IMG/VR virus record: IMGVR_UViG_3300029319_000017
Location: 23,893 to 87,892 of that record
Reading direction: 5' to 3' (one strand)
DNA length: 64,000 bases
Origin: a virus
Positions 1 to 28,938 of the stretch are shown here, one piece after another (the stretch's first letter is position 1; every line of letters starts with the position of its first letter). The translations under genes were made by a program, and so were the position numbers. The notes under the pieces are model-generated. The model worked only from the letters and a program-made list of their open reading frames with translations, made no database searches and was not told the origin of the DNA.

Positions 1-3000
1 TCTAATTTAGATACGATTCTAACAGCTCTTTCTGTAAACTTCTCTGTAGGTAATATGTGTAAGTAACTCATGTTGTTTAAAGACATACCCGATTGTAGTA
101 TTGCATGGTCTATTAACATGTTTTGATCAGTTTCTGGTAACTCTAAGAATGCGTCTCTTAAACTATTAGCTTCATAGTTATTAAGAATTCTAGAGTATAG
201 TTTTATATTGTCTGTTCCTCTTAGTGGTCCTGTACGTACTTTTTCTACAGATGGTAACAACGACTGTAAGAAAGGATTATTAGGATATAATTTTTGTAGT
301 TCTGTTACTCTTTTTGCTGCTGATCTTTCTCCTAAGAATAATTGTTCTGCTTTGTTACCCAGTTTTACACCATCAAAATTTTCTGCTAGCAATGCTGCAA
401 CTATCAGTTCATTTTCTGCTTCATTTAGTACAGTCAATCTAGCAGCTTCGCTTAGAGGTAATCTAGGATCGGAAAATATATCAAAGATTGCATCTAATTG
501 TCCTACAGCTCTTGGTCCCGCACGCTCTGTTAAGAACATACTATTAAATTGTTTAGATGCTGCTTCGTGTGTAAGATAGAATTCATTTAAATGTGTACGT
601 TGTATTAGGTTATCTATATTTCCAAATACATTTCTATGTTTTATGTCATCAAATTTATTTAGTAGAAGTTTTGCATGATTTCTACTTTTTGGTATTGCTG
701 TATCAAAAGATGTTGCTAGTGTTAATCCTGTTAGCTCTCCACCTACTGCATCATACAATACAAAATCTTCTAATACTTGTAGCTGATCTTCTCCTAACCC
801 TTGTTCTATTATTTCTGTTCTAGTTTTAGTAGACATTTCTTTTAAATTTTCAGCACTAAATAACTTAGGTGTTCTTCTTGATCCTTTTTTAGTAGGGGCA
901 TAATATCCTAATACAGCGTTAAATATTGTAGCTTTAGATTGTGGATTATTTTTAACCATGTTTATCTTACTACTGTTTGCATTTAAACGACTAATGTATT
1001 CTTTTATAATAGGCTGGTTAATAAAAAAGACTGCCTCTCTAACAGGAACGCCTGATCTTAATAAGAACATTAATGCATTCCCAACTTCAGGAACAAGGTT
1101 TAAGTCAGCTACAATAGGGTCCTCTGATGCATCTGCAAAAACATTTAAAAGTTCAGATGCAATTTCAGTTATTCTGTGCTCTCCTTTTATATCATATATT
1201 CTGTCTAATCTTATTGCACTTCCTGTTAACCCACTAAAACCTTCTATGTTTATTCCTATATTAGAAAATTCTTTTACACCTTCAATTGTAACGTTTGGTC
1301 TTAGGTATAGCCCTGCTTGCTGCGATTTTACTATGTGTGTTGCATTTGTAGCTGCTATACCTAAACCATTTTTTCCTGATTGGAAATCTTTTGTGATATT
1401 AAAAATATGTGGATAAGAGATTAGTTCTGCATCGCTAACCTGTCTTTCTGCTATTCCTAGTTCAGATCTTATATCTAGTATAACTCTTGTACCAATAGGA
1501 TTAAGTAATTGTGTATAAGATCTAGGAGTAGATAATATTTTTGTTTTTAAATCTATCATCCTGTTTTGCACTGCACCCATATGGTTTAGTTCTACAGGAT
1601 TTTTACCTTTGTTTTCTATAAAGAATTCATCTAAAGAAGGTATTTTATTTGCTTTCTTTTCTAATTTTTTAAATTCTGCTACAACATCTTCTACACGATC
1701 TGCACGATCTTTATCTGGATTGTTTGCAAGTTTTTTAAACCTACTAAATAATACTTCTATTTCTGCATCAGAGTAGTCGTATAGTTGATCGCCTGCTACA
1801 TTAGGATTGTCTCTAAATATAGCTAACAATAAATTTTCTACTGCAGCCTCTGTACTTCCCATTTCTTGTGCTCTAGCATTAACTAGATCTTTACTAAACT
1901 TGTCCCAAAATCTATTAAACGGTCCATACAATGCATCATAGTATTGTTTTATACCTTCTTTGGTATTTGTATCCGCATTTATAAATTCTCTTTTAGTTAT
2001 TTTACCATCTTTTACTGTGTAAGAAGGCATGTATAATGTTAATTTATCAATATCAAAGTCAGACCCTGCTTTAACTACTAACTCAGAAGGGACCATAACT
2101 TGTGCACCAGACTGTGGTGGTAAGAATCCTTTTATAGTCATAAAGTCAATAGAGTGTAAACCGTCCGTTGGGATACGAAATCCTATTAGTTGTAATAAAT
2201 TAGAGTCTCCTACTTTTTGTCCCCTTTGATTGTATACACCATCTGGTCTAACCTGTAATCCTTCTCCTAAAAACTCTTTAAAATAATGTGGTAGGTATAC
2301 TTCCATACCAAGTGTTTCTGAGTTTGGATTATTAGGATCTTTCTTACGATAAAACTTTAATCCGTTTCTTCCTGAAGATTCTACTTTGCCTTGTCTTACA
2401 ATTCTAACAGTGTTTTCTGATCCTAAAGAAGATACTTGTACTGCATTTTCACCTTTTACTTTTTGTGTAATAGAGTTGTTTCCTACCAGTGAAAACAATA
2501 GGTTTTCTAATCTACCTTTGTTTACTATAATATCAAACACTTTCTTGTCCCCGTCAGGCTGATTTAGTAGAGACTCTATACCTGCTGCTACGTTTTCTGG
2601 ATAGTTTCGTTTAGCTATTTCATCACGAATCATATCTGCAAACTTTTGGATATTACCTCCTGTTAATTTGTAACTAACTTCGCCTTTACTATCAACTACT
2701 TTTTCTAAATTAAATCTTTTAAGTAAATTTTCTCTACTTCTTCGTGTAATCTCATTAACTGCATCTAAATAGTCTGATGCATCTTTGTGTACAGAAGAAG
2801 CTTTTTTCTTCTGTTCTGGTGTCATCTTTTCCCAAGAAGCAATGTCTCCTGTATAGTCTGCAGGCATACCCCCTTCGTATAAATTTGCAAGTATGTGAGT
2901 TCTAGACTGCGTACCTAATGTAACTTTACCTTTAAACTCTTTATTAATATCTACTTGTATCCCAAAATAAGATAAGTCTATTACCGTGTGTAAGTCTGAG

Positions 3001-6000
3001 TCTATAGGATTTATAGTACCGTCTTCATTATAAAACTGTGGTGCGTTACCTGTAACAAGATCTACTCTACTACCTATCTTAGCAGCTGTAGGATGCATAA
3101 CCATGTCTGTACCAGACTCATACATATCTTTTAATAATCCTTTTAGCGCAGTGTCTTGACCATTTATTCTAGTCATCTGTGGAAATATAGGAGTTAAAGA
3201 TAGCTTTAACCCTACCATTTGTTTTAACTCAGATATTGCAGGTCCAAAACCTTGTGGCTTTAATGTTGGAAATGCTGTTAGTTCTTCTTTTGTAAGCTCT
3301 TTTCCTAACATTGACTTTCTAAACAAATTTTCTTGTTGTTCTGTCCAGTCTCCAATTCTCATCATAAGCTCTCTATAAAAATGTATATTAGCAAATGCAT
3401 TTGCATCAGCTTCTTCTATGTTTCTATACAAATTAGATATATCTTCTCCTAAATACTCTGCATATTCTCTCCAATAAACACTTTCTGATACAGGATCTGC
3501 ATAGATCATTATATTAGCTTGCCCGTTATAACTCTTATTATGCTCTCCATAGTTTTCTTTTACTTCTTCACTAACTTCAGGCTCATTATTGTTTAACCAA
3601 GAATTCATACGATCATCTACTCTAGGAAACTTTTTTGTACCAGATGCTAGTTTAGTTCTTTTGTATAAATCTTTGTATTGTGCTACATCACCAAAGAAAA
3701 GTTTTAATTGTTCTACATTACCTATAAAGTTTTGTAATGCAAATGCACTAGCTATTGCATCTACCTGATTAGCAGTTAGTTGCTTACCCACTTTGTCTCC
3801 TGTAATATTACTAACAGTTTGTGTATCAAGCCCATTATTTAAGAACGTATTGCCTTTACCTTTAGTAAGTATTCTTGTTTGCAGCATTAATTTTTTATTT
3901 TTACTTGCCTCTTCGTTTAAGTAATTAATTATTGCTGATTGTATTACAGATTTATTTTTACCCATAAACTCATTAATAGGCATGTGGCCTTGTAATACAT
4001 TAGTTAAGTCTATCATTTCACTTGGCTGCAGTCTAGACTCTACTATTTGTTTAAATACACGTAATCCTCCTCCTTTTCTATTATAGTCTTTTATATCTTT
4101 TCCTAATCCTTTTGTATTAAAGTTTACTGCCGTGGTAAGTTCATCTACAAAATACCCTAATAACTGTTCTCTTACATCTACAGGATCAGTAAACTGTTCT
4201 ATAGGAAATCTAACACCATATTCTGTTTTAGCATCAGCTGTTCTTAGTATTGGTATTACACCATTAAGTACAGAGTTTATGTACATAGCAGCTCTATCTT
4301 CATATGTCAAATGTGATGTGTGTAAACCTTGATCTCCAGCTCTATCTATTCTTAATCCTTCTATAACATGCATTTCTATTTTTGCATTAGGATCTGCACT
4401 TATAGCTTTTAATACTAAAGAGTTTGCTACATATGGATTGTTTTTAAAGTGTTCTGGTAATATGCCTGAGTTTAGTTTGTTAGATATTAAACTCATATAT
4501 GTATTTAATGTAATACCATACACAGGTTTACCTTCAGCATTAAAGTGTTTAAGCTCTACAGCCTTGTCGTTAAACAGCATTTCTACTTTTAATAAATTAC
4601 CAAGTCTTGTTTGTGCATCTATTGTTTCTCTAGAAAATAGATCTGCGCCTAAAGTATTATCTGGTTTATTTAATTCTGACAATACCCAGCTTGCAGAGTC
4701 TCTTAATATTTGTTTTATAGTTTTACCATCTATAGTTTTATCAAGATTATTTAGTATTGCAGCTCTGTCTGCAAACTCAAATCCAAAGTTTTCAAATAAT
4801 TCTAATACTGTATTAGGATCATCTAATACAAGAGATCTTAAAACTCCAGTTTGATTTATTTGTTTTAAACTTTTATTACGTATTTTACCTATTTTAGGTT
4901 TGTAATCTAAATTAATTTTTAACTCACCGTCTTGTACACTAACAAGTAATCTACCATCAACATCTTTTACATTAGAGTTCTTTAAATTATTTCTCCAAGG
5001 AGTTATAATAATATTTTTTAATTGATTTGCATTAGGGTCTACAGAATAAAAGTTTCCTTCAGTATCTAATACAAAAGAATCAAATGTATTTTTAGTTTTA
5101 TTCATTTGCTGTGCAAACATATTACTAAGTTTCATTTGATCAAATGAGCTGTTGTCATCTAGTTCTCCTAATCTTTTTACTAATGGTTTAATCCAAACAT
5201 GCTTATCAGATAATTGTTTTAATTTTTCAATTTGTTTATTAGGATCTGTAATACCTGATAACCTATCTTGTATAAAGTTCATAGCATAGTTAGAGTCTAC
5301 AATACCAGTTGTCCCAGTAATATTTATTGTAGTTTCATTAGCTAATGTTCCTAATAACAATTTTATATAAGGATGTGAGTTGCCTGTTGCAGAAAACTGC
5401 ATAGACTCTAATATATTAAATGGGTCACTTTGTCCATTCTTTAAGTTTTCTTCTTTTTCTACCTTTAACGATGTGTCTATACCTATGGACAATAAAAATT
5501 GTCTGTGTACTTCTTGAAAAGATTTTATGTTACCGTCTCTTGTAGTTTTAACTCTACCTCCATTTAAGAATAATCTTGCTTTAGCAGCTCTTTGTGCAAG
5601 CAAGTTGTATTTATCTTTTAAAGCTGTATCATTTGTATTAGAAGCCAGATCTGTATAAATTTTTATTTTGCTTCCTAGCTCATCATACATTCTACTAAAT
5701 GCAGTTTTGTATATTTTAACTAGTTTATTGTTGTACTCATCGTATCTATTAGGATTAGACAACATTTCTAATTCACTTAGTGTTAGTTTTAGATTAGGAT
5801 CATCAAACATAGTTTTACCAAAGTGCTTAGTAAATGTGCTCATCATGTCCATAGAAAATCTAGCGCTTGTAACATTACCATCATTTTCTAATAATGCCAT
5901 GTTAACTTCTTCTACATTTCTTGTTTCAGTAGGAGCTTTTATATCAGCAAACTCTCCAGCTTTTATCTTATTAAATATTGTTGCAACAGTCTGCATGTTA

Positions 6001-9000
6001 GGATCTACTTGTAGTTGTGCATCTAATCCAAACATTGCTCTAAAAAAGTTTCTAAGTCTGTCAAACAATCTAGCAAAGAATCCTTTTGGCTTACTGTACA
6101 CGTCTTTTTTATAAGTTTCGTTACTTAGTATCCACTTTCTAAACTCTTCTGCTAAATACTCTTCTGCTTGCTTATCTGTTGCATTAGAAAACTTAACCAT
6201 CTTTCCCTTGTAGTCTTTAAAAGATCCTTTGTTATTTCTAACTTCATCGTACATTTGTTTTCTTGTTTTGTCATTTAACAAGAAATAAGAAACCTGGTGA
6301 AAGCCTTCATGATATGTAGTACCACCTACAGCTAATTCAGATACTACAGTTCTACCAAATCCTTTAACTTGACCTATAACATTAGGTGTTTTACTTTTTA
6401 TAAACCCTGCAACAAACTCTACTTTATTCCAAGGTAACATTTTATTTATTGTATCTATTTCTTCTTGTGTAACGCCTTTAGACTCTTCTACGGCAAGATC
6501 AAGAATTTGTTCTCCAGAGTATACTTGCTCTACAACTAGGTTTATTTCTTCGTCATCAAACAACTCATCTTTTTTCTCTTCATTTGCTTTATCTATTTCA
6601 TCTTGTATACTATTATCTTCTGCAGGACTGCCTAAAACATCTGAAACCTCTTTATCTTCTTGGACAGGTATATCACTAAAATCTTGTACAGGAGGTCCTG
6701 TTATAGCTTCTTCTGCTTTTTTAATGTTCTTTTCATTTTGCTCTATTCTTTTTTCTACTTCGTTTTCTACTTCAGTTTGATTTTCTTTTACTTCTTGTTC
6801 TGTAGTTCCTTGTACAATAGCAGCATTATTTTCTTCAGTTCTACCTTTAAATTTATTAAATGCAAAGTCTCTAAAAGAGTTTGCTCTAGAAGTATTTTTA
6901 TATTCTTCTAAATACTCTAACAACTGGTCTATGTACTCTTGATCAGATATATTTTTTGGGTCTCCATTATAAAGCATAAAACCTTCAGCATTATCAAGGT
7001 TAGCAGCATACTTAGAATCTACAGCCTGTTTAAATCCTTCCATTATTTCTACTTCTATAGGTCTACCTGCTTTAGCATCGTTGAGCATTTTTTCATATCT
7101 TTTTATCTCTTGCTTTTGTATATCTGTATAGACTACATTTTCAGGTGCTTGTGGGTCAGCTTCTCCTTGATATACTCTACCAGATCTTGAATCTCTACCA
7201 GGTATATCAAACTTTAAATATCTAAATTTATACTGTGGTGTAATATAACTTAGGTTATTCATTAAAGGTAAGTTTGTTTGTAATGGAGGTGCAAACGCAG
7301 CATCCTCTCTAGCTTCTAGCAAGTATTGCTCGTAATTATCCCATTTAAATCTTACACTGTCATCTAATTCAAATGTATTAACTCCTGTTTCTTTATAGAA
7401 CGGCATGTAGAAAGGAGTCGTAGATGAAGGCTTACCGTTTTTATTTCTTAGACTTTTTATATTAACGTTTACTAATTTGTTTAATAAAAAGTCATTTAGT
7501 TTAGATGTGTTATTATCTAGTATATCTTGATAACTTATAAACTGATCACCCATTTGATATCCTTTACCTGTATCAAAAAAGTCTACTCTTGTTACCCCGT
7601 CTTCTGCTAGCTGGCCTTCAGTTCCAGATCCATAGTAAAGCATGTCTTTTAACTTTTGAAATACAAATACTTTTTTACCATCTACATCTAATAGAGCAGC
7701 TTCTTGTCTAAGTTTTTTGTCGTCTTTTTTAGCATTAGCAGGATCTTCTTTAAGAGCTTCATATCTAGTTTGTACTATACGCAATAAGTTTATAACGTTT
7801 TGTGCTTCTTTTGGATTTAATGTTCTAAGATGTAAAGGCGCTAAATTACCTGCAGAAGTTACAGTAAATGCCATACCTGCAAATGGTACTCTATATGTTA
7901 TACCTGAAGGTGTTGTTATCTCAGAGTATACTTTACCTCTGTCTTCTAAGTTTTTAGTAGTAAGTTGTATAACAACATCCTTTGTACCCTTTTTACCTCT
8001 AGAACCTATTACTCTGCCCTTAATTGGGGACAATACTTTTTGACCATTAACTGTATTTATTACATTAGGAAGACCTGCACTCATACCTTTAATGTCTAAG
8101 AGTATAGGAGTTTTAGATTTTAATATTACATCTCTATCTGACTTATATTCATTTAATGCATTTTCTACATTTATACCAGCGCTGTTAGTAAATCTATTAA
8201 CGTTATTTTTATCTTTTAAGGTAGCACCCATCATAGATGTATACACTATATAAGATTTTTCTCCTTGCTTAGGAGTATTACCCTTTGCATTTACTCTAAC
8301 AGGTTTACCTGTATTGTCTACTAAAACTAATTTAATGTCTGTAGTATTAGGATCTACATGGCTATAATCCATGAACTTACCTTGGTCGTTATTAAAAAAT
8401 ACACCTTTTAAATCTTTTTCTAGATCTTGGGGTATGTTGTTACTATGCACAGCCATTAGTTTGTTTTTCTTCATATTAACAAACTTAGATGTAGCTTGGA
8501 ACCATATTAACTGATCTCTATATGCTCTAAATTGATTTTGTTCACCAAGAGTAAGATCTTCTCGCATTGTAGGCTCTTGGTTTTCATCTAAAATTATATT
8601 ACCCTTACCATCTACTATAGATAATTTTTTTAATGTATCCATAGCTGTTTTTTGATCCCCAGCTGTTTTATAAAATCCAGGTCCTGCAATGTCAGGTTTA
8701 AATAAAAATGGATTATTTTTTGCCATGTCATCTGCTTGCATGTCGTAGTTTCTACCTGAAGGCGGAGGATTGTTAGGTTTGTTAGGAGATGTACTACTTG
8801 TGCTTGTAGGAGCTATTACTCTAGCTTCAATCTGAGCTAGTTTAGCAAGTATTTCATCTACAGCATTCATATACTCTATTGCATTAAGCATCATATCTAA
8901 GTTTATAAATTGCTGATCTATATCACCGTCCTCCCTTTGTATTTTATACTCGCTTATAATACCGTTTAACTCATCTATCTCTTCGTTAGTGGCTTTTAAA

Positions 9001-12000
9001 TGTTTTTCTAATAATCTAGATTCTGTAAATGTTTTTTCAACTTTATCTAGTTTTTCAAAAAACTGTTCTATATCTTGGAATATATCTGGATTATTTTTTC
9101 TAAATTGTTTAAACTGTCTATAAGTAGGTAAACCTTCTACACCTTCCATTTCCATGTCAAGCATATCTTGGTCCATACCTCTAAGCCTAGTTCCTTGTAG
9201 GTTATAGTTTTTAGCAGCAGTGCCTGTTATATAAGTAAGTTGCTGTCTTAGTTTATCTCCTTTAAACTCATAATTATCAGGTATTTGACCTGTTTCTTTC
9301 ATTAGTGCTTCTCGTTGCTCTACCTGTTGTACATAGGCCTCTATTTCTCTAATAACTTCTTGGTATAAATCATCAAAGTTTTGTGCATTAGATTGATCTA
9401 AACCGCTGTTTTTAAGCTCTCTAATACGATCAAATATCATTTTTTCTAAAACATCTTTATGACCTTTTAGCTCATCTAATTTTAGATTTATAAGTTCAAT
9501 ATTTTTGTTTGTAGTTCCTGCCCATTCATTTATAGAAGTCTTAAGATCATTTGCTATTTCTGCAACAGCATCTCTATCTTCTCTAGTAGTAATAATTGGA
9601 GCATTTCTAATTTTTTGAGCTTCTTCTCTTAGTAATTCTTGCTCAAGTTGTAAAGCTTCTAAATTACTATTTCTAATATCACTGTCTTCTTCTCTATTAA
9701 GAACATCTATTTGTTCTTGTAATCTAAATAATTCATTGTCTATTTCTCCAAGCCTTTCAAATCTATCTATTTGGTCTATAGGTATTCCCTGCTCTATTGC
9801 TCCAAGTATAAGCGCTTCGTTTTCAGCTGCATATCTTTCAGTAAATTGACCTTGTTTATTTACATTAAACGATTTATTTAAATCTACACTAAACTCTCTT
9901 GTTTTAGGATTGTAGTGTAATGATACAAGTTCTTCTAGATAATCTATTTGATCTAGTATCATTTTTTGTTCTTTCCTTAGTTCTTCTATAAGGGCTTCTC
10001 CAGTATTTATCTGATCTTCAAGTTTTGCAAGAGCTTCTGTTACCTTTTTAACATTTATAAACTTGCCTTTGTTTCTACCAGTTTTAACTTGATTCTCTAA
10101 ACCCGACTCTTCTATTTCTATCATTAAATCTAGAATTTCTTTTTCTAGTTCTCCAATGTCTTTAGCAAGTTTTTCTACCCTAGTTCCCTTTTCTCTTTTT
10201 AATTCATCAATAGCATCTAATAATTTTTTAGCTCTAGCCTGTTTATCAGTGACTATATTTTCATCTCTACCTCCTAAGTTTTTAAGTATAGAAGAATCTA
10301 CTACATTAGTTGTACCTTCTTCTAATAAATTACCGCTAGAGTCAAACCTATACCATTTATCACCTACTCTAAATTTAGCTTTAGTTCCAAATTCTTCAAA
10401 CAGTTTTTGTGCTTCAGGATCATCTATATTATTTTTTGCAGTTTCACTTTCTACATCATCAACATATTTTTCTATTTCTTGTACAATCCTTAAACTTGTT
10501 TTATCTGGATTAGATCTTGCCATGTTATAGTCAGCAATAAATTGCTGTCTTCTAGCTCTTACATGCTTTAAATCTTTAAATAATTGTACAATTTGTTCTA
10601 TTTTATCTGCAGCTTTAGGATCTGTATTTATTAAATCTTTAAGTTGTGCTTCTAAAAATGCACGTAATGCTTGATCTTCTTTCATATCTAAAAATAGAGT
10701 AGCATCTCTATTTGTGCCTGCACTTAACCCTAAAAATTGTTTTGTAGATTCTAATTGATTTTCTAAAAACGATCTGTACTCTTGTACATCTTTAACTACA
10801 TTTTTTAACTGCTCAGGCACAACTAATTCAGAATCTTTTTTATCTAATAATTTTTGTACTTCTTCTAAATATTTTTTTGCACGTTCTTTACTAAATGCTC
10901 CTACAGTAAAACTTTGTTCATTTCCTTCTGAGTCAACATAAGTAATTGTTCTTGCTGCGCCTCTATTTTTAGAATCACCTTCAGTAACTTTACCTCCAGT
11001 TAACTTAGCTAAAAGCTCTGTCATAGACTTTTCTCTTTCAGATAATAGATCAATAGATGCTAATCTATGGGCCATTCTTTCTCTTAGACCCATTATTTTA
11101 TCATTTGTCCACTTTTGATTGTCAGTTAGTTTTAAAACTGCATCTACATCTTTAAAAGCTTGTTGTATTTTATTTGCCCTTCTTATAGCAGAGTCTGCCA
11201 TTTTATTTTTTCTAGCTTGTATTTCTTCAGGACTGTTAAAATCACTTTCTTGGTATCCAAAATACTCTATAAATTCTGCATCTGACATTTCTCTAATAGC
11301 ATCTGCTTCAGATTTTATATCAGCAAATTGACCTGTCATTACTTTAGCTTTTACATAAGCAAAGAATTTGTCATTTTGTAAATTTTTATATTCAGCGATA
11401 TTACCATCTGCTAAATGTTTATCCATTAAAGCTTGCAACTCTTGTTGCTCTGTATAAAAATCTGCATATGATTTTATACTAGTTAAAATATCTCTTCCAT
11501 GTTTATTATAATAATCTGCAGCTACATCTTGAAAAGCCTCATTCATTCTTACCTCATTTAACCTTGCACCTGCTGCAGTCCAAGAACCATTATTAAATGT
11601 TCCCCCTGGTAATCCTAACATACCTAACATAAATCCTAACATAACTTCTGTTTGTCCATTAGGATCTTTAAATGTTTTTATGTAACCTCTATTAAAAGAG
11701 TCTATTAAACTAGCAGTACCTTCTTTACCCATTATGCCGTGTTTAGCTAATGTATATTCGTAAGCAGCTTCAGATAAAACAGACTGTCCACCTTCTTCTA
11801 TATAACCTTCGTATAAAGCTGGTGCTCCCACGGCTTTAATTCTGCTTGCTGCCTTATTAATACGTATTGCATTTTTTTCACTAATCCCTAATAGTTTACT
11901 AGCTCTGTTAGCTGTATAGGCAGCTTTTGCAGTTCCATCTGCAGCCATTACTGTAGGTCTAGATGCAAGTCCAAGTTTACCCATTGCATTTTGATATCCT

Positions 12001-13133
12001 TGTTTTAAAGCTGCTCCTGGACCATATAAAGAGCCTAACATTATCATATTACTTACACCTACTAAAGCAACATTACCTGCAAATACAACATTTGCTTGGG
12101 CTCTAGCTTTATTTTCTATATCTAATTTTTCTTCTAGTGTTAACTCTCTAGCCTTACCTTCCTTTTTTTCTATCTGTCTTAAGTAATTAGTAGTTAACGT
12201 TTCTTTCATGTGCTCATAAGCCTGTCTAGATTCAACACCAGCCTCAAATCCTGCACCTGTAATTAACTGTCTTCCCATTGTAGTAGCTTCCCAGAATTTG
12301 TCAGACTTTATACCATTTTTAATTGCTTTTGTTATTTTAGTTGCATCTGCTGCCCTGTCTAAATATCTAGCTCCTCTACCAGCTGTTTTTAAAAGACGAG
12401 CAGCTCTACTAGCTAAAGCTGCAGTATACGCAGCTTGGACTGGACCTGTAGCACCAAATGTATATGCAGTTGCAGCACTTAATGCCATTTCTGTTAATGC
12501 AGCTCCTGCAACAAAACTTAAACCGTTTGTAAATTGATCTGACCAAAAGTTTGCTGTTCCTAATCTTTGCCATACACTCATTTCTCTTTCATAATTAGTG
12601 TAGTAATTAGGAAGCTTTCCATCCATATACTCATTAGCATCGTCTAAAGCATGCATAATAGAGTTATCCCATATTTTAGATACTGACCCATTTAGAATAG
12701 CAGATCCTGCACCGTATACTGTACCAATTGCACCACCAAGCACATTCGTACCAACTTTACCTACAGCTTTTGTAAGACCGTTTGCCCATTTATCAATAGT
12801 TCTTTGTCTTTGACCCCTAACTTCATTCATATCGTAGGTGTCTTCTAATCTTAATGGTGCATAAGAATCTTCTTTTTTCTCAAAAACTCCTGTATTTCCT
12901 ATAAATTGTACATTAGGTGTTTTTTGAAAAGGAGCAAGTAGTATACCCTGATTTGTAGGAGTGTATTTTTCTTGATTTTCAAGTTCTGGAATTTCTTCAA
13001 TAGAAGTTTGCTCAGGTTTTTCTGTTTGATCTTTTGTCTGATTCTCAGTTTGATTTTCAATGTTTTGATCTTCTTCAATAATAGGAAGATTATCTATCTT
13101 TTCTTTTTCTAAATTTTTTAAGTCTTCTAACAT
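1..13133 (-). CDS. Giant virion RNA polymerase polyprotein, crAss-like (3' end beyond window)
   Basis: One reading frame runs without a stop from an ATG at 13133 to the left edge, at least 4,377 codons; the end is missing. It starts 14 bases after the stop of the upstream cargo gene. Residues 1-60 are acidic and Gln/Asn-rich. Residues about 145-515 contain Ala/Gly-rich hydrophobic stretches. Residues about 700-1390 are charged coiled coil, followed by a Pro/Ser linker near 1440-1460. A zincin-like HEGFH site lies at 2275-2279 and a DFDID motif at 3692-3696. Known: crAss-like phages inject a single-chain double-psi-barrel RNA polymerase whose active site is an Asp triad of this kind, and it transcribes early genes. 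Inference: the C-terminal third does that here, and the N-terminal parts serve packaging, ejection or processing. It is far longer than the roughly 2,000-residue polymerases I know of, so it looks like a fusion. Confidence 0.85.
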   Translation of the reverse strand, partial: MLEDLKNLEKEKIDNLPIIEEDQNIENQTENQTKDQTEKPEQTSIEEIPELENQEKYTPTNQGILLAPFQKTPNVQFIGNTGVFEKKEDSYAPLRLEDTYDMNEVRGQRQRTIDKWANGLTKAVGKVGTNVLGGAIGTVYGAGSAILNGSVSKIWDNSIMHALDDANEYMDGKLPNYYTNYEREMSVWQRLGTANFWSDQFTNGLSFVAGAALTEMALSAATAYTFGATGPVQAAYTAALASRAARLLKTAGRGARYLDRAADATKITKAIKNGIKSDKFWEATTMGRQLITGAGFEAGVESRQAYEHMKETLTTNYLRQIEKKEGKARELTLEEKLDIENKARAQANVVFAGNVALVGVSNMIMLGSLYGPGAALKQGYQNAMGKLGLASRPTVMAADGTAKAAYTANRASKLLGISEKNAIRINKAASRIKAVGAPALYEGYIEEGGQSVLSEAAYEYTLAKHGIMGKEGTASLIDSFNRGYIKTFKDPNGQTEVMLGFMLGMLGLPGGTFNNGSWTAAGARLNEVRMNEAFQDVAADYYNKHGRDILTSIKSYADFYTEQQELQALMDKHLADGNIAEYKNLQNDKFFAYVKAKVMTGQFADIKSEADAIREMSDAEFIEYFGYQESDFNSPEEIQARKNKMADSAIRRANKIQQAFKDVDAVLKLTDNQKWTNDKIMGLRERMAHRLASIDLLSEREKSMTELLAKLTGGKVTEGDSKNRGAARTITYVDSEGNEQSFTVGAFSKERAKKYLEEVQKLLDKKDSELVVPEQLKNVVKDVQEYRSFLENQLESTKQFLGLSAGTNRDATLFLDMKEDQALRAFLEAQLKDLINTDPKAADKIEQIVQLFKDLKHVRARRQQFIADYNMARSNPDKTSLRIVQEIEKYVDDVESETAKNNIDDPEAQKLFEEFGTKAKFRVGDKWYRFDSSGNLLEEGTTNVVDSSILKNLGGRDENIVTDKQARAKKLLDAIDELKREKGTRVEKLAKDIGELEKEILDLMIEIEESGLENQVKTGRNKGKFINVKKVTEALAKLEDQINTGEALIEELRKEQKMILDQIDYLEELVSLHYNPKTREFSVDLNKSFNVNKQGQFTERYAAENEALILGAIEQGIPIDQIDRFERLGEIDNELFRLQEQIDVLNREEDSDIRNSNLEALQLEQELLREEAQKIRNAPIITTREDRDAVAEIANDLKTSINEWAGTTNKNIELINLKLDELKGHKDVLEKMIFDRIRELKNSGLDQSNAQNFDDLYQEVIREIEAYVQQVEQREALMKETGQIPDNYEFKGDKLRQQLTYITGTAAKNYNLQGTRLRGMDQDMLDMEMEGVEGLPTYRQFKQFRKNNPDIFQDIEQFFEKLDKVEKTFTESRLLEKHLKATNEEIDELNGIISEYKIQREDGDIDQQFINLDMMLNAIEYMNAVDEILAKLAQIEARVIAPTSTSSTSPNKPNNPPPSGRNYDMQADDMAKNNPFLFKPDIAGPGFYKTAGDQKTAMDTLKKLSIVDGKGNIILDENQEPTMREDLTLGEQNQFRAYRDQLIWFQATSKFVNMKKNKLMAVHSNNIPQDLEKDLKGVFFNNDQGKFMDYSHVDPNTTDIKLVLVDNTGKPVRVNAKGNTPKQGEKSYIVYTSMMGATLKDKNNVNRFTNSAGINVENALNEYKSDRDVILKSKTPILLDIKGMSAGLPNVINTVNGQKVLSPIKGRVIGSRGKKGTKDVVIQLTTKNLEDRGKVYSEITTPSGITYRVPFAGMAFTVTSAGNLAPLHLRTLNPKEAQNVINLLRIVQTRYEALKEDPANAKKDDKKLRQEAALLDVDGKKVFVFQKLKDMLYYGSGTEGQLAEDGVTRVDFFDTGKGYQMGDQFISYQDILDNNTSKLNDFLLNKLVNVNIKSLRNKNGKPSSTTPFYMPFYKETGVNTFELDDSVRFKWDNYEQYLLEAREDAAFAPPLQTNLPLMNNLSYITPQYKFRYLKFDIPGRDSRSGRVYQGEADPQAPENVVYTDIQKQEIKRYEKMLNDAKAGRPIEVEIMEGFKQAVDSKYAANLDNAEGFMLYNGDPKNISDQEYIDQLLEYLEEYKNTSRANSFRDFAFNKFKGRTEENNAAIVQGTTEQEVKENQTEVENEVEKRIEQNEKNIKKAEEAITGPPVQDFSDIPVQEDKEVSDVLGSPAEDNSIQDEIDKANEEKKDELFDDEEINLVVEQVYSGEQILDLAVEESKGVTQEEIDTINKMLPWNKVEFVAGFIKSKTPNVIGQVKGFGRTVVSELAVGGTTYHEGFHQVSYFLLNDKTRKQMYDEVRNNKGSFKDYKGKMVKFSNATDKQAEEYLAEEFRKWILSNETYKKDVYSKPKGFFARLFDRLRNFFRAMFGLDAQLQVDPNMQTVATIFNKIKAGEFADIKAPTETRNVEEVNMALLENDGNVTSARFSMDMMSTFTKHFGKTMFDDPNLKLTLSELEMLSNPNRYDEYNNKLVKIYKTAFSRMYDELGSKIKIYTDLASNTNDTALKDKYNLLAQRAAKARLFLNGGRVKTTRDGNIKSFQEVHRQFLLSIGIDTSLKVEKEENLKNGQSDPFNILESMQFSATGNSHPYIKLLLGTLANETTINITGTTGIVDSNYAMNFIQDRLSGITDPNKQIEKLKQLSDKHVWIKPLVKRLGELDDNSSFDQMKLSNMFAQQMNKTKNTFDSFVLDTEGNFYSVDPNANQLKNIIITPWRNNLKNSNVKDVDGRLLVSVQDGELKINLDYKPKIGKIRNKSLKQINQTGVLRSLVLDDPNTVLELFENFGFEFADRAAILNNLDKTIDGKTIKQILRDSASWVLSELNKPDNTLGADLFSRETIDAQTRLGNLLKVEMLFNDKAVELKHFNAEGKPVYGITLNTYMSLISNKLNSGILPEHFKNNPYVANSLVLKAISADPNAKIEMHVIEGLRIDRAGDQGLHTSHLTYEDRAAMYINSVLNGVIPILRTADAKTEYGVRFPIEQFTDPVDVREQLLGYFVDELTTAVNFNTKGLGKDIKDYNRKGGGLRVFKQIVESRLQPSEMIDLTNVLQGHMPINEFMGKNKSVIQSAIINYLNEEASKNKKLMLQTRILTKGKGNTFLNNGLDTQTVSNITGDKVGKQLTANQVDAIASAFALQNFIGNVEQLKLFFGDVAQYKDLYKRTKLASGTKKFPRVDDRMNSWLNNNEPEVSEEVKENYGEHNKSYNGQANIMIYADPVSESVYWREYAEYLGEDISNLYRNIEEADANAFANIHFYRELMMRIGDWTEQQENLFRKSMLGKELTKEELTAFPTLKPQGFGPAISELKQMVGLKLSLTPIFPQMTRINGQDTALKGLLKDMYESGTDMVMHPTAAKIGSRVDLVTGNAPQFYNEDGTINPIDSDLHTVIDLSYFGIQVDINKEFKGKVTLGTQSRTHILANLYEGGMPADYTGDIASWEKMTPEQKKKASSVHKDASDYLDAVNEITRRSRENLLKRFNLEKVVDSKGEVSYKLTGGNIQKFADMIRDEIAKRNYPENVAAGIESLLNQPDGDKKVFDIIVNKGRLENLLFSLVGNNSITQKVKGENAVQVSSLGSENTVRIVRQGKVESSGRNGLKFYRKKDPNNPNSETLGMEVYLPHYFKEFLGEGLQVRPDGVYNQRGQKVGDSNLLQLIGFRIPTDGLHSIDFMTIKGFLPPQSGAQVMVPSELVVKAGSDFDIDKLTLYMPSYTVKDGKITKREFINADTNTKEGIKQYYDALYGPFNRFWDKFSKDLVNARAQEMGSTEAAVENLLLAIFRDNPNVAGDQLYDYSDAEIEVLFSRFKKLANNPDKDRADRVEDVVAEFKKLEKKANKIPSLDEFFIENKGKNPVELNHMGAVQNRMIDLKTKILSTPRSYTQLLNPIGTRVILDIRSELGIAERQVSDAELISYPHIFNITKDFQSGKNGLGIAATNATHIVKSQQAGLYLRPNVTIEGVKEFSNIGINIEGFSGLTGSAIRLDRIYDIKGEHRITEIASELLNVFADASEDPIVADLNLVPEVGNALMFLLRSGVPVREAVFFINQPIIKEYISRLNANSSKINMVKNNPQSKATIFNAVLGYYAPTKKGSRRTPKLFSAENLKEMSTKTRTEIIEQGLGEDQLQVLEDFVLYDAVGGELTGLTLATSFDTAIPKSRNHAKLLLNKFDDIKHRNVFGNIDNLIQRTHLNEFYLTHEAASKQFNSMFLTERAGPRAVGQLDAIFDIFSDPRLPLSEAARLTVLNEAENELIVAALLAENFDGVKLGNKAEQLFLGERSAAKRVTELQKLYPNNPFLQSLLPSVEKVRTGPLRGTDNIKLYSRILNNYEANSLRDAFLELPETDQNMLIDHAILQSGMSLNNMSYLHILPTEKFTERAVRIVSKL
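2046..2060 (-). other. DFDID catalytic motif of the RNA polymerase domain
   Basis: Inside the giant ORF, residues 3692-3696 read D-F-D-I-D, followed by K-L-T-L-Y and preceded by V-V-K-A-G-S. In crAss-like and YonO-type single-chain RNA polymerases, a DxDxD signature in the second double-psi beta-barrel holds the catalytic metal. The flanking hydrophobic strand V-M-V-P-S-E-L-V-V just before it fits a barrel strand. The motif is seen directly; the catalytic role is inferred from the family. Confidence 0.8.
6297..6311 (-). other. HEGFH zincin-type metallopeptidase motif inside the giant ORF
   Basis: Residues 2275-2279 read H-E-G-F-H in the context G-G-T-T-Y-H-E-G-F-H-Q-V-S-Y-F. About 45-55 residues later comes A-E-E-Y-L-A-E-E-F-R, which could give the third zinc ligand (Glu). 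HExxH followed by an Glu-rich helix is the gluzincin layout. The motif is seen; protease activity is inferred. Confidence 0.6.
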
Positions 13134-13147: not shown

Positions 13148-15238
13148 TTATCCTCCTGTTGGAACAGAATCAAAGCCAAGTAATCTTGAGCCTTGATATG
13201 CAGAATCATATAATTCATCTAATTTATTAGGTTCTTGTTGAACTTTTTTACCAATTGCCTTGTTGTCTTTATCATAAAATACGTAAGTAACTACAGGATA
13301 AAATCCTTTTTGGTTTGTGTTGTTTCCGTTTGCATCTTTTAAAAAATCATACTCATATTCAATAGAAGCAACCGTTACTCCTCCATATTCATTTTGATAA
13401 GATTCTACATATTGTACAGGCTGGCCATTAGGACTGTTATATCCATTTGTAACATGTGTATATAAAGCATTTGCAACTTCAAATGCTTGTTTTACTTCAT
13501 TTTGTGCTCCAATTTCTACTTGTACAGAACCATTTTCTGTATTAATTTGTACTACTCCTGATCCTGCTTGATGCCCTTGAGCCATCATACCAGCATAATA
13601 ATAATCTCCATCTTTAATAGCCTTATATATATCTTGTTCACTTATACCTTTATGAACTTCAGCTAATCTTTCTACAGCATCTTTTAAACTATTAGTATAA
13701 CTACCGTCTTGTTTTCTAACATGCACACTTCTGTTTGTAAGTAAAGAAGGTTTTACTTTAGGATCATTCATATTTTTTAAATGCTCGTTATCTCCTGTAT
13801 ATATTTTAGAAACTTGAGCTTGTGTATTTTCCATTTCTTTAGTTATATGCTCTAAAAATGCTTTATCACTATCAAAAGACTGTCTTACATCTGCATTTTC
13901 TATTAATAATTTTGCTATATATTCATCTCTACCTGCAAATAATTGTGCTTCAGACATTAATTGAATATTACCTCCTGACTCTTGTACAAGATTATCATAT
14001 CTCTCTAACATATCTTCACCAGCTTGTTCTATACATTTTGGATCTCCATTACATTGATTTATAGCAAGTTCAAATTTACTATCTTTAAAATTATAATTAC
14101 CATCTTCATCAAAAATTCTTTTACCTGGTACTAACCAATCTACAAAACTTCCTAGACCAACACCAGCTAGTGTACCTAAAGGACCAAAAAACGAACCAAT
14201 ATTACCTCCTATTAAAGCACCTTCTAATATGCCATCATCTTCATAGTCTTTAAAGCTTCCATCGTCATTTTTTGCAAATAAACTACCAGGAGTTAAAAGT
14301 TTATTATTTTGTTGAACATTAGTAGTTGTAGTACCAACTAAACCTGGATTTTGTTGTTGTACATAATATGGATTTTTTTGATAGCTAAATGAACTTTTTC
14401 CAGCCTGTTTAGATGCAATAGCAAGCATTTGACTTTTAATTACTTCTTGAGCTTTTTCTGGAGTATATGTTTCACCTGTTTCAGGATCTATTTCTAACTG
14501 TGTTAACTTTCTCATTTGTTGTATACCCTCATCAGTTGATAAGTAAGTACCCATTAATCCATCAACAACACGTTGTACCTTACTATTACTAAGGTATGCA
14601 CCTGTTCTTATTAGTGCTCCTATTTGTTTAATGCCTGTATCACTCATAGATATGTTAGCTACAAGATCAGCCATTTTTTCATCATAGCCAAGCATTTGTT
14701 CAAACTTAGGTTCGTATACACTTGTAACCATTTCTCCTGTTTCAGGATCTTGATAATGAGATCTATGCATGCTAGCAATTTCTTTAAGTATAGGCTGTCC
14801 ATTTTCATCTCTAACTAAATTACCTTCATTATCTCTTACAAATTCTTTGTCAAATAAAATTTGTGCTCCTTGAGCTCTTAACTGTGCTTTAGCTTTCTTT
14901 TCTAAATCATAGTTAGCATAAGATTGTCTAGCAGCTATTAAACCTTCATTAGTCATAAAGTCTGTTGTAGCCTTAGATACTGTATTACCTGCAATTTCAA
15001 ATGCTCCACTAGCAGCAATATCAGAAAATTGACCGTTAATATTATTAATCATATCATCTTTTAAACCCTCATCACCTTCTAATACTTGCATAGAACCTAC
15101 TGTTCTATTAAGCATATCATAATTAAGTTTATTATCATCATATCTTTTCTTTAATATAGTTGCTACCTGCACTTTACCAGGATCAACATACATTGATTGA
15201 TATGGTTTTAATTCGTATCTACTGTATCTATTTGCCAT
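13148..15238 (-). CDS. crAss-like cargo (ejected internal) protein, 696 aa
   Basis: I recognise this by position and make-up, not by a named domain. It lies between the giant RNA polymerase and a second large glycine-motif protein, where crAss-like phages keep virion cargo proteins. It opens M-A-N-R-Y-S-R-Y-E-L-K-P-Y and is mostly helical and charged. Residues about 337-371 form a Gly-rich hydrophobic stretch with repeated GxxxG spacing (A-L-I-G-G-N-I-G-S-F-F-G-P-L-G-T-L-A-G), a glycine zipper that could insert in a membrane. Residues 290-310 are Gln/Asn/Thr-rich. It ends 1 base before the next start on the same strand, so it is co-transcribed. Likely role, by inference: packaged with the polymerase and ejected with DNA. 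No enzymatic motif is visible. Confidence 0.75.
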   Translation of the reverse strand: MANRYSRYELKPYQSMYVDPGKVQVATILKKRYDDNKLNYDMLNRTVGSMQVLEGDEGLKDDMINNINGQFSDIAASGAFEIAGNTVSKATTDFMTNEGLIAARQSYANYDLEKKAKAQLRAQGAQILFDKEFVRDNEGNLVRDENGQPILKEIASMHRSHYQDPETGEMVTSVYEPKFEQMLGYDEKMADLVANISMSDTGIKQIGALIRTGAYLSNSKVQRVVDGLMGTYLSTDEGIQQMRKLTQLEIDPETGETYTPEKAQEVIKSQMLAIASKQAGKSSFSYQKNPYYVQQQNPGLVGTTTTNVQQNNKLLTPGSLFAKNDDGSFKDYEDDGILEGALIGGNIGSFFGPLGTLAGVGLGSFVDWLVPGKRIFDEDGNYNFKDSKFELAINQCNGDPKCIEQAGEDMLERYDNLVQESGGNIQLMSEAQLFAGRDEYIAKLLIENADVRQSFDSDKAFLEHITKEMENTQAQVSKIYTGDNEHLKNMNDPKVKPSLLTNRSVHVRKQDGSYTNSLKDAVERLAEVHKGISEQDIYKAIKDGDYYYAGMMAQGHQAGSGVVQINTENGSVQVEIGAQNEVKQAFEVANALYTHVTNGYNSPNGQPVQYVESYQNEYGGVTVASIEYEYDFLKDANGNNTNQKGFYPVVTYVFYDKDNKAIGKKVQQEPNKLDELYDSAYQGSRLLGFDSVPTGG

Positions 15239-15239: not shown

Positions 15240-18200
15240 TTAACACTTTTTTAACATTTTTCTACCCCCTCTTCCATATAAAGATCTATAACCTCCTTCT
15301 CTTTGATTGGTATTGTTGCTTAGTTTTTTAAGATAACCTGCAAATGCATTTGAATACTCGGGAGTACCTTTTTTATCTTCCATACCTGGATTCAGTCTTT
15401 GAAAGTCTAGCTCATGTGTATAAAAATTATCTAATACATTTGTTTGACCTGCAATAGCTCTTGATAAATCATCTTGTGCTTTATATTGTAGGTAATCAGC
15501 TCCCATACCTGCTATACTTTGTACTGCATTTTGTACAGCCATTAACTTACGATCTTTAGTAGCAGCATCCGCAGCTCTATTAAACTCATCTACAGTTATA
15601 CGATTTGCAATATTTTGTCTTGTGTTTTGACTGTTTATTGCAGCTTCTTGTTGTTGTATCTGAGCATTAGCTCTTGCTTCTGCACTACCTATTTGTACAT
15701 CCTGCGCTTGTTTTTTACCCCATGATGCCATCTTAGCAGCAATACCTCCAGGGCCTGCTCCACTCTGCTCTATAAATCTACTCATTCCTCTATAGTTGCC
15801 TTCATTTTGTTCTCTTTCTGCATTAAATCTTACTCTATCTAAATGTGTTTCAGGAATTCTACCTGGCTCTGCCATATAGTCTGGTTTTTCTTTAAAAGCC
15901 ATATATGCAGGAAGTAATTGTAATCCTGCTCCAAGTAATGGTATTCCTGCTTGTCCTAACCCTCTTAAAAATCCACTTCTCTTTTTAGTATTTTCTTCTT
16001 CCGCTGTAGGAGATTCTTCTTCTATTTCAGGTTCACCAGTCCATTGATATTCATCATCAGGATCTTCATCTATTACAATGTCTAAATAAGGATTAAATTG
16101 ATATATATTAGGATCATATGACCCTGGCTCTACTTCATAAATATCTACTTCTTGCAATTCACTAAATTCTTTTAAAGCATTTAATGTATCTATACCAAAT
16201 TTACCATCTACACCTTGTTTATTTTTTCCTAAATCACCTTCTAATATATCTGTTTCTCTTCCACTAAAAAATGTTGGATTAGAATTTTTCAATTCTTCTG
16301 AAGGATTCATTAAATTACTTTGCAGTAATTTTACATGCTCTGGATTTCTAGGATCAAATGTATCTAATCCTGTAATAGCAGCTGCTTCATCTAAATACTC
16401 TGCTATATCTTCATCCGTTACTTTATTATATAATCCTGTAAATTCAGTTTTCTTTTTACTATCATTTTTTTTCTTATCATCATTTTTCTTATCATCATTG
16501 TTATTAGTTACAGGGTCATCATTTTTATTGTCAATCTTGTCAACAATTTCAAACGCCCCAAGTTCAGAATTATATCTAATTTCTTTACCTTCAGGAATCT
16601 CTATACTTGATAATGGTTGATATCCTTCTTGATCTAAAACACCACCACCATTTGCATACTTTTTTCTTTCGCCTCCAAGATCATACTTATCTCTACCAGC
16701 TGCTTTTTCTTGTATAGCTGCTAATCGTTCTATATCTTGTTGACTACCACCTTTTTTTAATATATCTTTATGTCTTTGCGCAAAAGATTTTCCTCCTAGT
16801 TTTAAATAACTAGAGAAAAAATAATCGCTTCCTTGTACTTTATCCATAGTTTCTCCACCCTCAACTTCTGTCATAGGGTCTAATTTAATTCCACCTTGTT
16901 CATGTTTTTTACCAACAAATTCTGTTGCTCCTCCTGGTAATGGTTTTGCTACACCTCCATCTAATTGTTTAGTTCCTCCATGTCTATATCCTAACATCAT
17001 AGTATTAGTAGGATCCATTATTGGCCCTGATTGAGATGGTCCAGATGCTGGTGGAACAACTAAAGGCATATTTTTGTTTGCAGCCATATGTTTATCTGTT
17101 TTAAGAGTACTTTTTGCTGCAGTTTTACCTCCACTTGTTGCAACTTTAAGACTACTCCCAGTATTTACTAATGGTTTTATAGGAGTTTTAGCTAATTTAC
17201 TTACACCTTTTATTCCTGCTTTAGCAAAAGATCCTCCCCAAGGAATAAATCCTAAACCAGCCATTCCTGCAGATTTTAGCGCATTCATATAATCACCTTC
17301 TTGAAGGTACTTACGAGCATCATTTGCATCTAATACTCCAGCAGCAAATCCAGCTAGAGGATTAAACATTCCTGCTACATCAAGAGCTAATCTTGCTTTG
17401 TTAGGGTCTACAGGCCCTCCTACTTCTACCTTTTTTCCATCAGGTGTTCTACTAAAATCATACCCCCCTCCAACAAATTTTCTAGGACTATTTTCTTGAC
17501 TTGCGTAGTTTAGGAGCCCGCCCTCCATATAAAAATTTCTGTATCCACCATCTTTATTCATCCTATCATTGTATATCATTTTTTTTAATTTGTTTGCGCG
17601 AGTTGCATTGTAGTACCTGTTAAGAACAAATGGCTGAGCAAATTTTTCAGCCTCTTCTAAAGCTTCCTTTGTACCTTTTGGTTGACCTTGTTTTGCTAGA
17701 TTTTCCATCCTTTTTCTATCTCCTTCTCTGTATCCACCATCTTGATTTTGACTTCGCTTTAAAGCTGCATCTGTAGGAGCACCTTTACTGCCTGGCTTTC
17801 TCATTTTTTCACCTGATCCTGCTTTTATTCTTTTTCTTTTAGCGTGTATATTAGCCCAAAGACCTGGACGACCTCCTGTTCTTAAAGTTCCCATGTCAGA
17901 TCCTGTATATTCTTTACCAGTTAAATTACCTGCAAATATAGCTTGATTAGCTTGTGCTTTTCTTGCTTCTTCTTCTGCCTCCATTTCTCTTGCTTCATCT
18001 CTAGCCTTTTTTCCTTTAAGACCGCTACTAATACCTCCTACTACTGCACCAACTCCTGCTCCAATTGCAGTACCAACTCCTGGTATAATACTACCTATTG
18101 TAGCTCCTGTTGCCGCACCTTTACCCATACCGCTTAATACAGTACCTGATGTTTCTCCTACATTCATCGTTGTAGCGTCATCATCATCAGAAACAGCAGT

Positions 18201-18713
18201 TATACCCTGTCCTACTAAATTAGCAGCTTGACCATATAAGTTAGCTTGACCTGCTGTCATACCTTCACCTGCTGCATAATTTTTTGCTGATTGCTCACCA
18301 AATATTTTAGCGTGCATGCCTCCAGGCGCATCAGCTGTACCATATTGACTTTTTAACAATTCCTCTTGATTCATACCAAACATATTTTTATCTTCTTTAA
18401 ATCTTTCTGTAGCAAGACTTTGCAATTGAGATGCACCTTGGGTTAAAGATTGATTTAGCATTTGATTAGTTTGATTTCTTTGTGTTTGCTGTTGTTGAAA
18501 TTGTTGTTGCCAAGGATTAGCCTGTATTTGAGCTAATTGATTTTCACCAGCATTTATTTGAGCTTGATTAACTTGTTCATACGAAGCTTGAGGTCCTGGA
18601 TTTATCATAGAAGTAGGTACAGTATTATTACCATACATACCTCCCATATTATAATAAGTTATTCTTCCTCCACGTTTGTAGAGTTTTCTTTTTTTAATTT
18701 TGTCTTTTTTCAT
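15240..18713 (-). CDS. crAss-like cargo protein with repeated Gly-Gly motifs, 1157 aa
   Basis: I start it at the ATG at 18713 (M-K-K-D-K-I-K-K-R-K); an in-frame GTG at 18734 would overlap the upstream gene by 41 bases instead of 20. The N-terminus is basic, then Gln/Asn-rich to about residue 130. A clear glycine zipper lies near residues 195-235 (G-A-A-T-G-A-T-I-G-S-I-I-P-G-V-G), and a second hydrophobic stretch near 930-960. Short motifs ending in GG recur along the chain: YKRGG, YYNMGG, NQDGG, NKDGG, FYMEGG, YLKLGG, ILKKGG, YDLGG, YANGGG and LYGRGG near the C-terminus. An acidic/lysine linker lies around 740-790. It sits between the muzzle-like protein and another cargo protein. Inference: an internal ejection protein, possibly processed at the GG sites. 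No known enzyme motif is visible. Confidence 0.75.
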   Translation of the reverse strand: MKKDKIKKRKLYKRGGRITYYNMGGMYGNNTVPTSMINPGPQASYEQVNQAQINAGENQLAQIQANPWQQQFQQQQTQRNQTNQMLNQSLTQGASQLQSLATERFKEDKNMFGMNQEELLKSQYGTADAPGGMHAKIFGEQSAKNYAAGEGMTAGQANLYGQAANLVGQGITAVSDDDDATTMNVGETSGTVLSGMGKGAATGATIGSIIPGVGTAIGAGVGAVVGGISSGLKGKKARDEAREMEAEEEARKAQANQAIFAGNLTGKEYTGSDMGTLRTGGRPGLWANIHAKRKRIKAGSGEKMRKPGSKGAPTDAALKRSQNQDGGYREGDRKRMENLAKQGQPKGTKEALEEAEKFAQPFVLNRYYNATRANKLKKMIYNDRMNKDGGYRNFYMEGGLLNYASQENSPRKFVGGGYDFSRTPDGKKVEVGGPVDPNKARLALDVAGMFNPLAGFAAGVLDANDARKYLQEGDYMNALKSAGMAGLGFIPWGGSFAKAGIKGVSKLAKTPIKPLVNTGSSLKVATSGGKTAAKSTLKTDKHMAANKNMPLVVPPASGPSQSGPIMDPTNTMMLGYRHGGTKQLDGGVAKPLPGGATEFVGKKHEQGGIKLDPMTEVEGGETMDKVQGSDYFFSSYLKLGGKSFAQRHKDILKKGGSQQDIERLAAIQEKAAGRDKYDLGGERKKYANGGGVLDQEGYQPLSSIEIPEGKEIRYNSELGAFEIVDKIDNKNDDPVTNNNDDKKNDDKKKNDSKKKTEFTGLYNKVTDEDIAEYLDEAAAITGLDTFDPRNPEHVKLLQSNLMNPSEELKNSNPTFFSGRETDILEGDLGKNKQGVDGKFGIDTLNALKEFSELQEVDIYEVEPGSYDPNIYQFNPYLDIVIDEDPDDEYQWTGEPEIEEESPTAEEENTKKRSGFLRGLGQAGIPLLGAGLQLLPAYMAFKEKPDYMAEPGRIPETHLDRVRFNAEREQNEGNYRGMSRFIEQSGAGPGGIAAKMASWGKKQAQDVQIGSAEARANAQIQQQEAAINSQNTRQNIANRITVDEFNRAADAATKDRKLMAVQNAVQSIAGMGADYLQYKAQDDLSRAIAGQTNVLDNFYTHELDFQRLNPGMEDKKGTPEYSNAFAGYLKKLSNNTNQREGGYRSLYGRGGRKMLKKC

Positions 18714-25916: not shown

Positions 25917-25920
25917 AGTC

Positions 25921-27526: not shown

Positions 27527-27527
27527 T

Positions 27528-28655: not shown

Positions 28656-28676
28656 TTTATATAAATTGGTTAATAT

Positions 28677-28934: not shown

Positions 28935-28938
28935 ATAA

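Follow-up and report, generated by a model that had tools for sequence, protein, structure and literature searches.

Terminal cysteines at the breaks of the virion RNA polymerase cargo chain in a crAss-like phage and its relatives

Few viruses are as common in the human gut as crAss-like phages. The stretch of DNA analysed here, referred to as the window, comprises 64,000 nucleotides (G000:C1:23893-87892) of an IMG/VR virus record of 87,892 bp, and judged by its TerL, portal and gene order the genome is crAss-like (Crassvirales). The TerL (phrog_6681) has its best matches among crAss-like phages, to which it is about 40% identical, with several named lineages at a similar 37–41%, and the closest relatives are many IMG/VR contigs with TerL proteins that are 73–99% identical; the portal corresponds to phrog_6547. 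The order of a muzzle-like gene, C1, C2 and then the RNA polymerase (RNAP) cargo agrees with that of crAss001, C1 and C2 being assigned by position (Table 1). In one relative, L108 (G011), the TerL is 75% identical to that of the window while the RNAP is only about 26% identical and its architecture is split, which suggests that the cargo block was exchanged or evolves very fast.

On the minus strand a frame without any stop runs from position 13133 to the left edge of the window over 4,377 codons, as an earlier note on this DNA had described, and in the parent record it ends at position 22665, the complete giant ORF (22665-37025, minus strand) encoding 4,786 amino acids followed by a stop codon. 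An assembly error or hidden stop, which the earlier note had named as the case that would speak against a single ORF, is ruled out by an independent metagenome contig that carries an uninterrupted 4,777-aa homologue covering residues 6-4786, with 72% identity in the best segment. As a more distant relative (29% identity) also spans 4,626 codons, the giant frame is therefore real and conserved. Searches of the window and of L006 against Rfam gave no hit for a self-splicing intron in the ORF. The start of the neighbouring 1,666-aa ORF shares TAATG with the end of the giant ORF; this neighbour matches the cr108_1 protein that comes after the RNAP (E=1.3e-76) and is taken as gp49/gp65-like.

Table 1. 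Features of the giant ORF and of the neighbouring cargo genes; positions refer to the window unless stated otherwise
Feature	Position	Strand	Basis or remark
Giant cargo ORF (gp47-like + RNA polymerase)	1..13133	-	4,377/4,786 codons in window; runs on to G000:C1:22665
gp47-like N-terminal cargo domain, residues 103-849	10587..12827	-	phi17:2 gp39 E=2.9e-53; crAss001 gp47 E=6.7e-26; phrog_32390 E=2.2e-50 over 105-699
Hydrophobic Ala/Gly-rich stretch, residues 204-223	12465..12524	-	Kyte-Doolittle maximum 1.37
Hydrophobic stretch, residues 346-370	12024..12098	-	Kyte-Doolittle maximum 1.81
Zincin-like metallopeptidase domain, about residues 2222-2341, C-terminal end of gp47-like part	6111..6470	-	aligned to crAss001 gp47 2005-2217
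HEGFH motif, residues 2275-2279	6297..6311	-	sole HExxH of giant ORF
Putative fusion joint gp47-like/polymerase, about residues 2340-2475, Cys-free	5709..6116	-	extrapolated from crAss001 gp47 and phi14:2 gp66 alignments
RNA polymerase core, residues 3003-4376	6..4127	-	phmmer 6vr4 E=1.6e-21; AlphaFold2 model 6vr4 E=3.3e-30
Catalytic DFDID motif, residues 3692-3696	2046..2060	-	motif position
gp49/gp65-like ORF next to giant ORF, 1,666 aa	G000:C1:17665-22665 (left of window)		only Cys at residue 3
C2/gp46-like cargo ORF, 696 aa, no terminal Cys	13148..15238	-	position only, as in crAss001
C1/gp45-like cargo ORF, 1,164 aa, C-terminal Cys	15240..18734	-	sub-cutoff Pfam glycine-zipper hits, PHROG hits, crAss001-like position
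Muzzle/stabilisation-protein-like ORF, 2,087 aa, 13 Cys	18694..24957	-	phrog_15100 virion structural protein E=9.4e-40

A phmmer search of the PDB with the giant ORF returned 6vr4, the virion RNAP (vRNAP) of phi14:2, over residues 3003-3736 and 3850-4156, within the region of about residues 3000-4300 in which a polymerase match had been expected. An AlphaFold2 model of residues 3222-4370 (pLDDT 80, pTM 0.81) was matched by Foldseek to the same structure (TM 0.67 by query), which was the sole PDB match at E<=0.001, and residues 3230-3719 align to crAss001 gp50 (2,412 aa). The N4 mini-vRNAP 3c3l reached an E of only 2.1 against the model of the polymerase core, and an N4-like, T7-like single-subunit polymerase was rejected, the core matching 6vr4. 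The DFDID motif lies at residues 3692-3696, where it had already been placed, and in an alignment of 11 sequences the three Asp of DxDxD and the following Lys are invariant. By homology the giant protein would travel in the virion and act once injected; its homologues in Fpv1 and FPSV-S29 are annotated as structural. In comparison with phi14:2 gp66 the protein shares the DFDID motif, a core that is homologous by sequence and fold, and the place in the genome block, whereas gp66 has 2,180 aa, is encoded apart from gp67 and carries Cys at 3 and -2, of which the giant ORF has lost the N-terminal one with the fusion.

The part ahead of the polymerase is gp47-like. Residues 44-706 and 2116-2348 align to crAss001 gp47 (2,341 aa), residues 44-849 match crAss001 gp47 and phi17:2 gp39, and the segment with the HEGFH motif (residues 2116-2372) aligns to the C-terminal region of crAss001 gp47 and the cr128_1 homologue. 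The hydrophobic, Ala/Gly-rich parts that had been noticed correspond to two hydrophobic stretches (residues 204-223 and 346-370) within the Ala/Gly-rich first 600 residues. For the protease-like site mentioned in the earlier note, the motif itself stands, with a single HExxH at residue 2275 that is invariant and a downstream Glu that is conserved among 13 relatives, while a PDB fold search with the weak model of this region gave nothing significant. In the model three strands precede two helices, the first bearing HEGFH and the second the Glu, an order that fits a zincin, and a viral fold search matched crAss-like giant ORFs. The alignments to phi14:2 gp66 and crAss001 gp47 place about 2,340-2,475 residues ahead of the polymerase instead of the about 3,000 assumed before. 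The lengths of crAss001 gp47 (2,341 aa) and gp50 (2,412 aa) add up to 4,753, near 4,786, which points to a clean fusion of a gp47-like and a gp50-like protein. We are thus practically certain that the giant ORF is a fused virion RNAP cargo, composed of a gp47-like leader with a zincin-like end and a gp50/gp66-type polymerase. The earlier proposal of a crAss-like virion RNAP joined to other cargo agrees with the matches to 6vr4, gp47 and gp50; its extension to several cargo genes has to be narrowed to two, the C1-like, C2-like and gp49-like genes being separate.

The position of the zincin at the fusion joint, together with the conserved HExxH and downstream Glu, raises the possibility that this domain cuts the fused polypeptide at or after injection, in which case fusion would be a packaging convenience and the polymerase would act free. 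Processing by zincins has been proposed for polyvalent proteins, and N4-like RNAPs bear zincin domains as well (PMC5512222). Several fused ORFs lack HExxH at this place, however, and the separate gp47 of crAss001 ends in the same HExxH domain, so that the zincin is not an adaptation to fusion. Cutting of this kind appears rather unlikely to us; it would be compatible with the coupling by Cys discussed below.

The size of the ORF had been regarded as exceptional, about twofold that of the ~2,000-residue polymerases, but named genomes already hold fused ORFs of this kind, some of them larger: 4,551 aa in cr1_1, 4,460 in cr10_1, 4,946 in cr118_1, 4,774 in cr50_1, 4,419 in FPSV-S29, 4,401 in Fpv1 and, with TAG recoded, 6,386 codons in cr272_1. 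A record size is therefore ruled out, and a 2023 review gives "up to ~6000 aa" for such proteins (PMC10136315). Size and fusion themselves are already known, and the fused ORF is ordinary: among 200 distinct IMG/VR loci, which are top-scoring matches and no random sample, gp47 fused to RNAP with gp49 separate is the commonest state (104/200), besides 22 loci with gp50 and gp49 fused and gp47 separate, 19 with all three apart and a few all-in-one ORFs, the remainder being cut by contig or locus ends. The fused ORFs of Suoliviridae (cr1_1 gp076, cr10_1 gp32, cr118_1 gp14, cr50_1) and of Fipvunavirus Fpv1 and FPSV-S29 resemble the one described here in the gp47-like+RNAP fusion with a separate gp49-like gene adjoining and in the terminal Cys pair, for which cr10_1 was checked at the RNAP C-terminus (Cys -11) only; they differ by an identity of about 22-25% in the polymerase part and belong to gut or Flavobacterium phages. 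The p-crAss type (Intestiviridae) likewise has a three-member chain in which a zincin ends the gp47-like part, but here the gp50+gp49 joint is fused and not that of gp47 and gp50; its annotations read "RNAP associated protein fused to zincin protease" and "RNAP catalytic subunit fused to unknown RNAP subunit". In cr108_1 (NC_055878) the ORF is also fused, but it is interrupted at the DFDID codons by a group I intron (RF00028, E=2.2e-20; L010:22438-22756). In cr116_1 (L207) and bajarodcaudo (L199) the RNAP is broken at the DFDID motif with an ORF in between, which in bajarodcaudo carries an endonuclease annotation.

Of the 4,786 residues of the giant ORF a single one is Cys, at position 4785, and the sole Cys of the next protein is at residue 3, both just beyond the left edge of the window, in a genome that averages 9.1 Cys per 1,000 residues. 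Comparable facing Cys are found in the named phages, where at every break of the gp47-gp50-gp49 chain the upstream protein has a Cys near its C-terminus and the downstream protein a Cys at residue 3-6. In crAss001 these are Cys -3 of gp47, Cys 5 and -9 of gp50 and Cys 5 of gp49, in phi14:2 Cys -1 of gp67, Cys 3 and -2 of gp66 and Cys 3 of gp65. The outer ends of the chain in the named phages, i.e., the N-termini of gp47-like and the C-termini of gp49-like proteins, are Cys-free. We hold with high confidence that this is a rule of the chain: each break has a Cys-ending upstream and a Cys-starting downstream protein, and fused joints have neither. The rule appears to be new. It was stated before the Intestiviridae, with gp50 and gp49 fused, were examined; there the gp47-like protein ends with Cys in 5/5, the fused ORF has a C-terminal Cys in 0/5, and it starts MxC or MxxxC in 5/5 after correction of two annotated starts. 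The RNAP starts annotated at L200:15978 (crAss002) and L201:15789 (C0521BW15) mask the Cys and look mis-annotated; in both genomes an MSC start follows shortly downstream in frame and fits the rule.

For a statistical evaluation the 200 IMG/VR loci were scored by ORF length, the cut-offs of which misfile a few loci, and then again by homology, with the first ATG taken as start; relaxed alternatives moved the N-terminal Cys of the next ORF from 138 to 141 of 142. By length, an N-terminal Cys was present on the RNAP ORF in 42/43 loci with gp47 separate vs 2/68 with gp47 fused, and both of the latter are broken further upstream behind a Cys-ending ORF. Where gp49 is separate, the RNAP had a C-terminal Cys in 148/156 and the next ORF an N-terminal Cys in 141/142, compared with 1/28 of the loci scored as fused; the lone case, L282, has a gp49 that is really separate and starts MCP. 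Scored by homology, an N-terminal Cys was found in 0/66 RNAP ORFs that contain the gp47 domain, whereas both Cys were present in 15/17 loci with this domain in the preceding ORF; of the two that fail, one has a fragmented frame and the other is TAG-recoded. Loci in which gp49 forms the next ORF had a complete pair in 142/149; the remaining seven comprise five whose Cys stands 16-50 residues before the end, a fragmented locus and L238. The number of terminal Cys in the RNAP ORF equalled the number of breaks in 105/105 loci with both ends readable (C-terminal window of 55 residues, four broken or recoded loci left out): one Cys with a downstream break only (52 loci), two with breaks on both sides (29), one with an upstream break only (22) and none without a break (2). 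The all-in-one ORFs L233 (5,642 aa) and L303 (5,677 aa) have no Cys and one internal Cys, respectively.

Between clusters at 50% identity the association gave Fisher p=6e-18 and 2e-17. A FastTree tree of 178 cores requires 10 or more changes of the gp47|gp50 break, with seven independent contrasts of N-terminal Cys against this break agreeing, none opposing and one tied (p=0.016). The tie is probably L350, which later proved to be recoded and fused. For the gp50|gp49 break the tree shows at least four changes, too few for a contrast test. Break points inside the gp47-like part are paired as well (L148, L149, L162, L170, L173). As controls, the annotated genes of five named records have a Cys within the first 8 residues in 5/97 and within the last 12 in 8/97, and an N-terminal Cys occurs in 5/70 in the genome studied here; a first control set, made of crude ORF calls beside the chain, gave 26/79.

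Several apparent exceptions were dismissed: L142 and L340 are truncated or fragmented frames, L217 has a frame break and its preceding ORF starts MAC, L350 is TAG-recoded and truly fused, and in L148 and L159 the chain is broken further upstream. In five TAG-recoded lineages the Cys lies 16-50 residues from the end. The single true exception is L238, which is not among the 105 loci with both ends readable; its RNAP ORF lacks a terminal Cys and the gp49-like ORF two positions on starts MAC; between the two lies a 730-aa ORF with four Cys (L238:15480-17669).

Tight overlaps such as TGTAAATAATGGCTTGT in this phage are frequent at the breaks and could suggest that the terminal Cys are the by-product of a nucleotide-level junction signal, i.e., of start/stop overlap or translational coupling. 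This explanation is largely refuted and in our judgement very improbable, since gp47 retains its C-terminal Cys when it is encoded on the strand opposite to gp50/gp49 and is not adjacent, as in crAss001, cr128_1, DAC15, cr106_1, cr116_1 and bajarodcaudo, which argues for a protein function and not for an effect of the DNA junction. Moreover, the position of the Cys ranges from -1 to -50, and both codons are used (TGT 254 : TGC 42), near the 200 : 51 of this genome. In phi17:2, the chain proteins of which lack DxDxD, the pattern is kept over three proteins and skips a small intervening gene. At the RNAP position this phage encodes gp38 (L007:25567-27120), a protein of 517 aa with Cys at 4 and -2, which may be a linker remnant of the chain.

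As an explanation at the protein level we propose that the facing terminal Cys at each break form an inter-protein disulfide. Linked head to tail in this way, the chain members would make up a single thread of roughly 6,000 residues, which would be drawn unfolded and in fixed order through the narrow tail, and the host cytoplasm would reduce the bonds and free the parts. Gene fusion would swap one disulfide for a peptide bond, so that one coupling would be left in this phage, joining Cys4785 of the giant ORF to Cys3 of its 1,666-aa neighbour. Coupling of chain neighbours by disulfides is, from the sequence evidence, rather probable. The wider notion of a reversible-disulfide thread of about 6,000 residues, in which fusion and disulfide are interchangeable, with at least ten switches at one joint and four at the other, lies just on the probable side. 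Head-to-tail coupling predicts the parity that is seen, with a Cys at the C-terminus only in the first member, at both ends in the middle one and at the N-terminus only in the last. An intramolecular closure of the RNAP into an N-to-C ring was rejected, as the fused forms carry one terminal Cys only. crAss001 packs gp47, gp49 and gp50 as cargo, which is thought to unfold during ejection, and disulfides are formed by its tail proteins (PMC10172136). Literature searches, with most subscription papers outside reach and an earlier notice of the rule thus possible, gave neither a mention of the disulfide nor biochemical support for it. Many hosts are anaerobes and assembly takes place in a reducing cytoplasm, which counts against the proposal with regard to the timing of bond formation.

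Cys at facing ends and their absence from fused joints would likewise be predicted if the terminal Cys docked neighbours without a lasting disulfide, e.g., by a shared metal ion, and so brought the RNAP complex together, either inside the virion or once injected. Two Cys alone make a poor metal site, though, no further Cys are evident in the tails, whose sequences differ widely, and the Cys depletion of the rest of the chain suits the avoidance of wrong disulfides; docking of this type we consider improbable. Covariation cannot distinguish hetero- from homotypic bonds because both Cys of a break nearly always co-occur, and the partner is hence not identifiable in this way. Bonds between two C-termini or two N-termini, or a tether to another virion component, could thus also be envisaged, and the C1-like protein (15240-18734), the last residue of which is Cys, has no evident chain partner here. 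This reading is less probable still: the outer chain ends of the named phages are Cys-free, the Cys count of the RNAP ORF equals the breaks throughout the readable loci, and even new break points within the gp47-like part are paired. Several C1-like proteins of Intestiviridae also have a Cys near the C-terminus and no evident chain partner.

Among other injected giants, the vRNAPs of N4-like phages (Schitoviridae) are similar in being Cys-free, which their authors linked to passage through the tail and the periplasm (PMC2784036; PMC3715699; PMC3915230), and in having fused zincin domains (PMC5512222); they differ in their single-subunit T7-like fold and, lacking Cys altogether, have no terminal Cys. 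Polyvalent proteins are also large, multidomain and delivered with the DNA, and a zincin domain is common among them, but no terminal-Cys rule is given for them in PMC5512222, in which the word cysteine is absent. For crAss-like phages the present data bear on the question of how giant proteins traverse a narrow tail in order and refold. The near exceptionless rule suggests a need for the cargo proteins to be linked at their ends, be it by a peptide bond or by a terminal Cys pair, and it helps to explain how freely gene boundaries shift in the cargo block and to correct start codons (crAss002, p-crAss type genome).

The rule also offers a reason for the extreme Cys depletion of these proteins. 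Apart from the termini the gp47-gp50-gp49 chain is strongly Cys-depleted in most lineages, and in the first IMG/VR set the interior of the RNAP ORF had 0.36 Cys per 1,000 residues vs 6.8 in neighbouring ORFs. The RNAPs of L167, L183, L186 and L187 contain 13-24 Cys and are not depleted, yet have Cys at both termini. At the opposite extreme to the cargo proteins, a 1,297-aa ORF at window positions 38814-42707 without a PHROG match contains 39 Cys (30 per 1,000).
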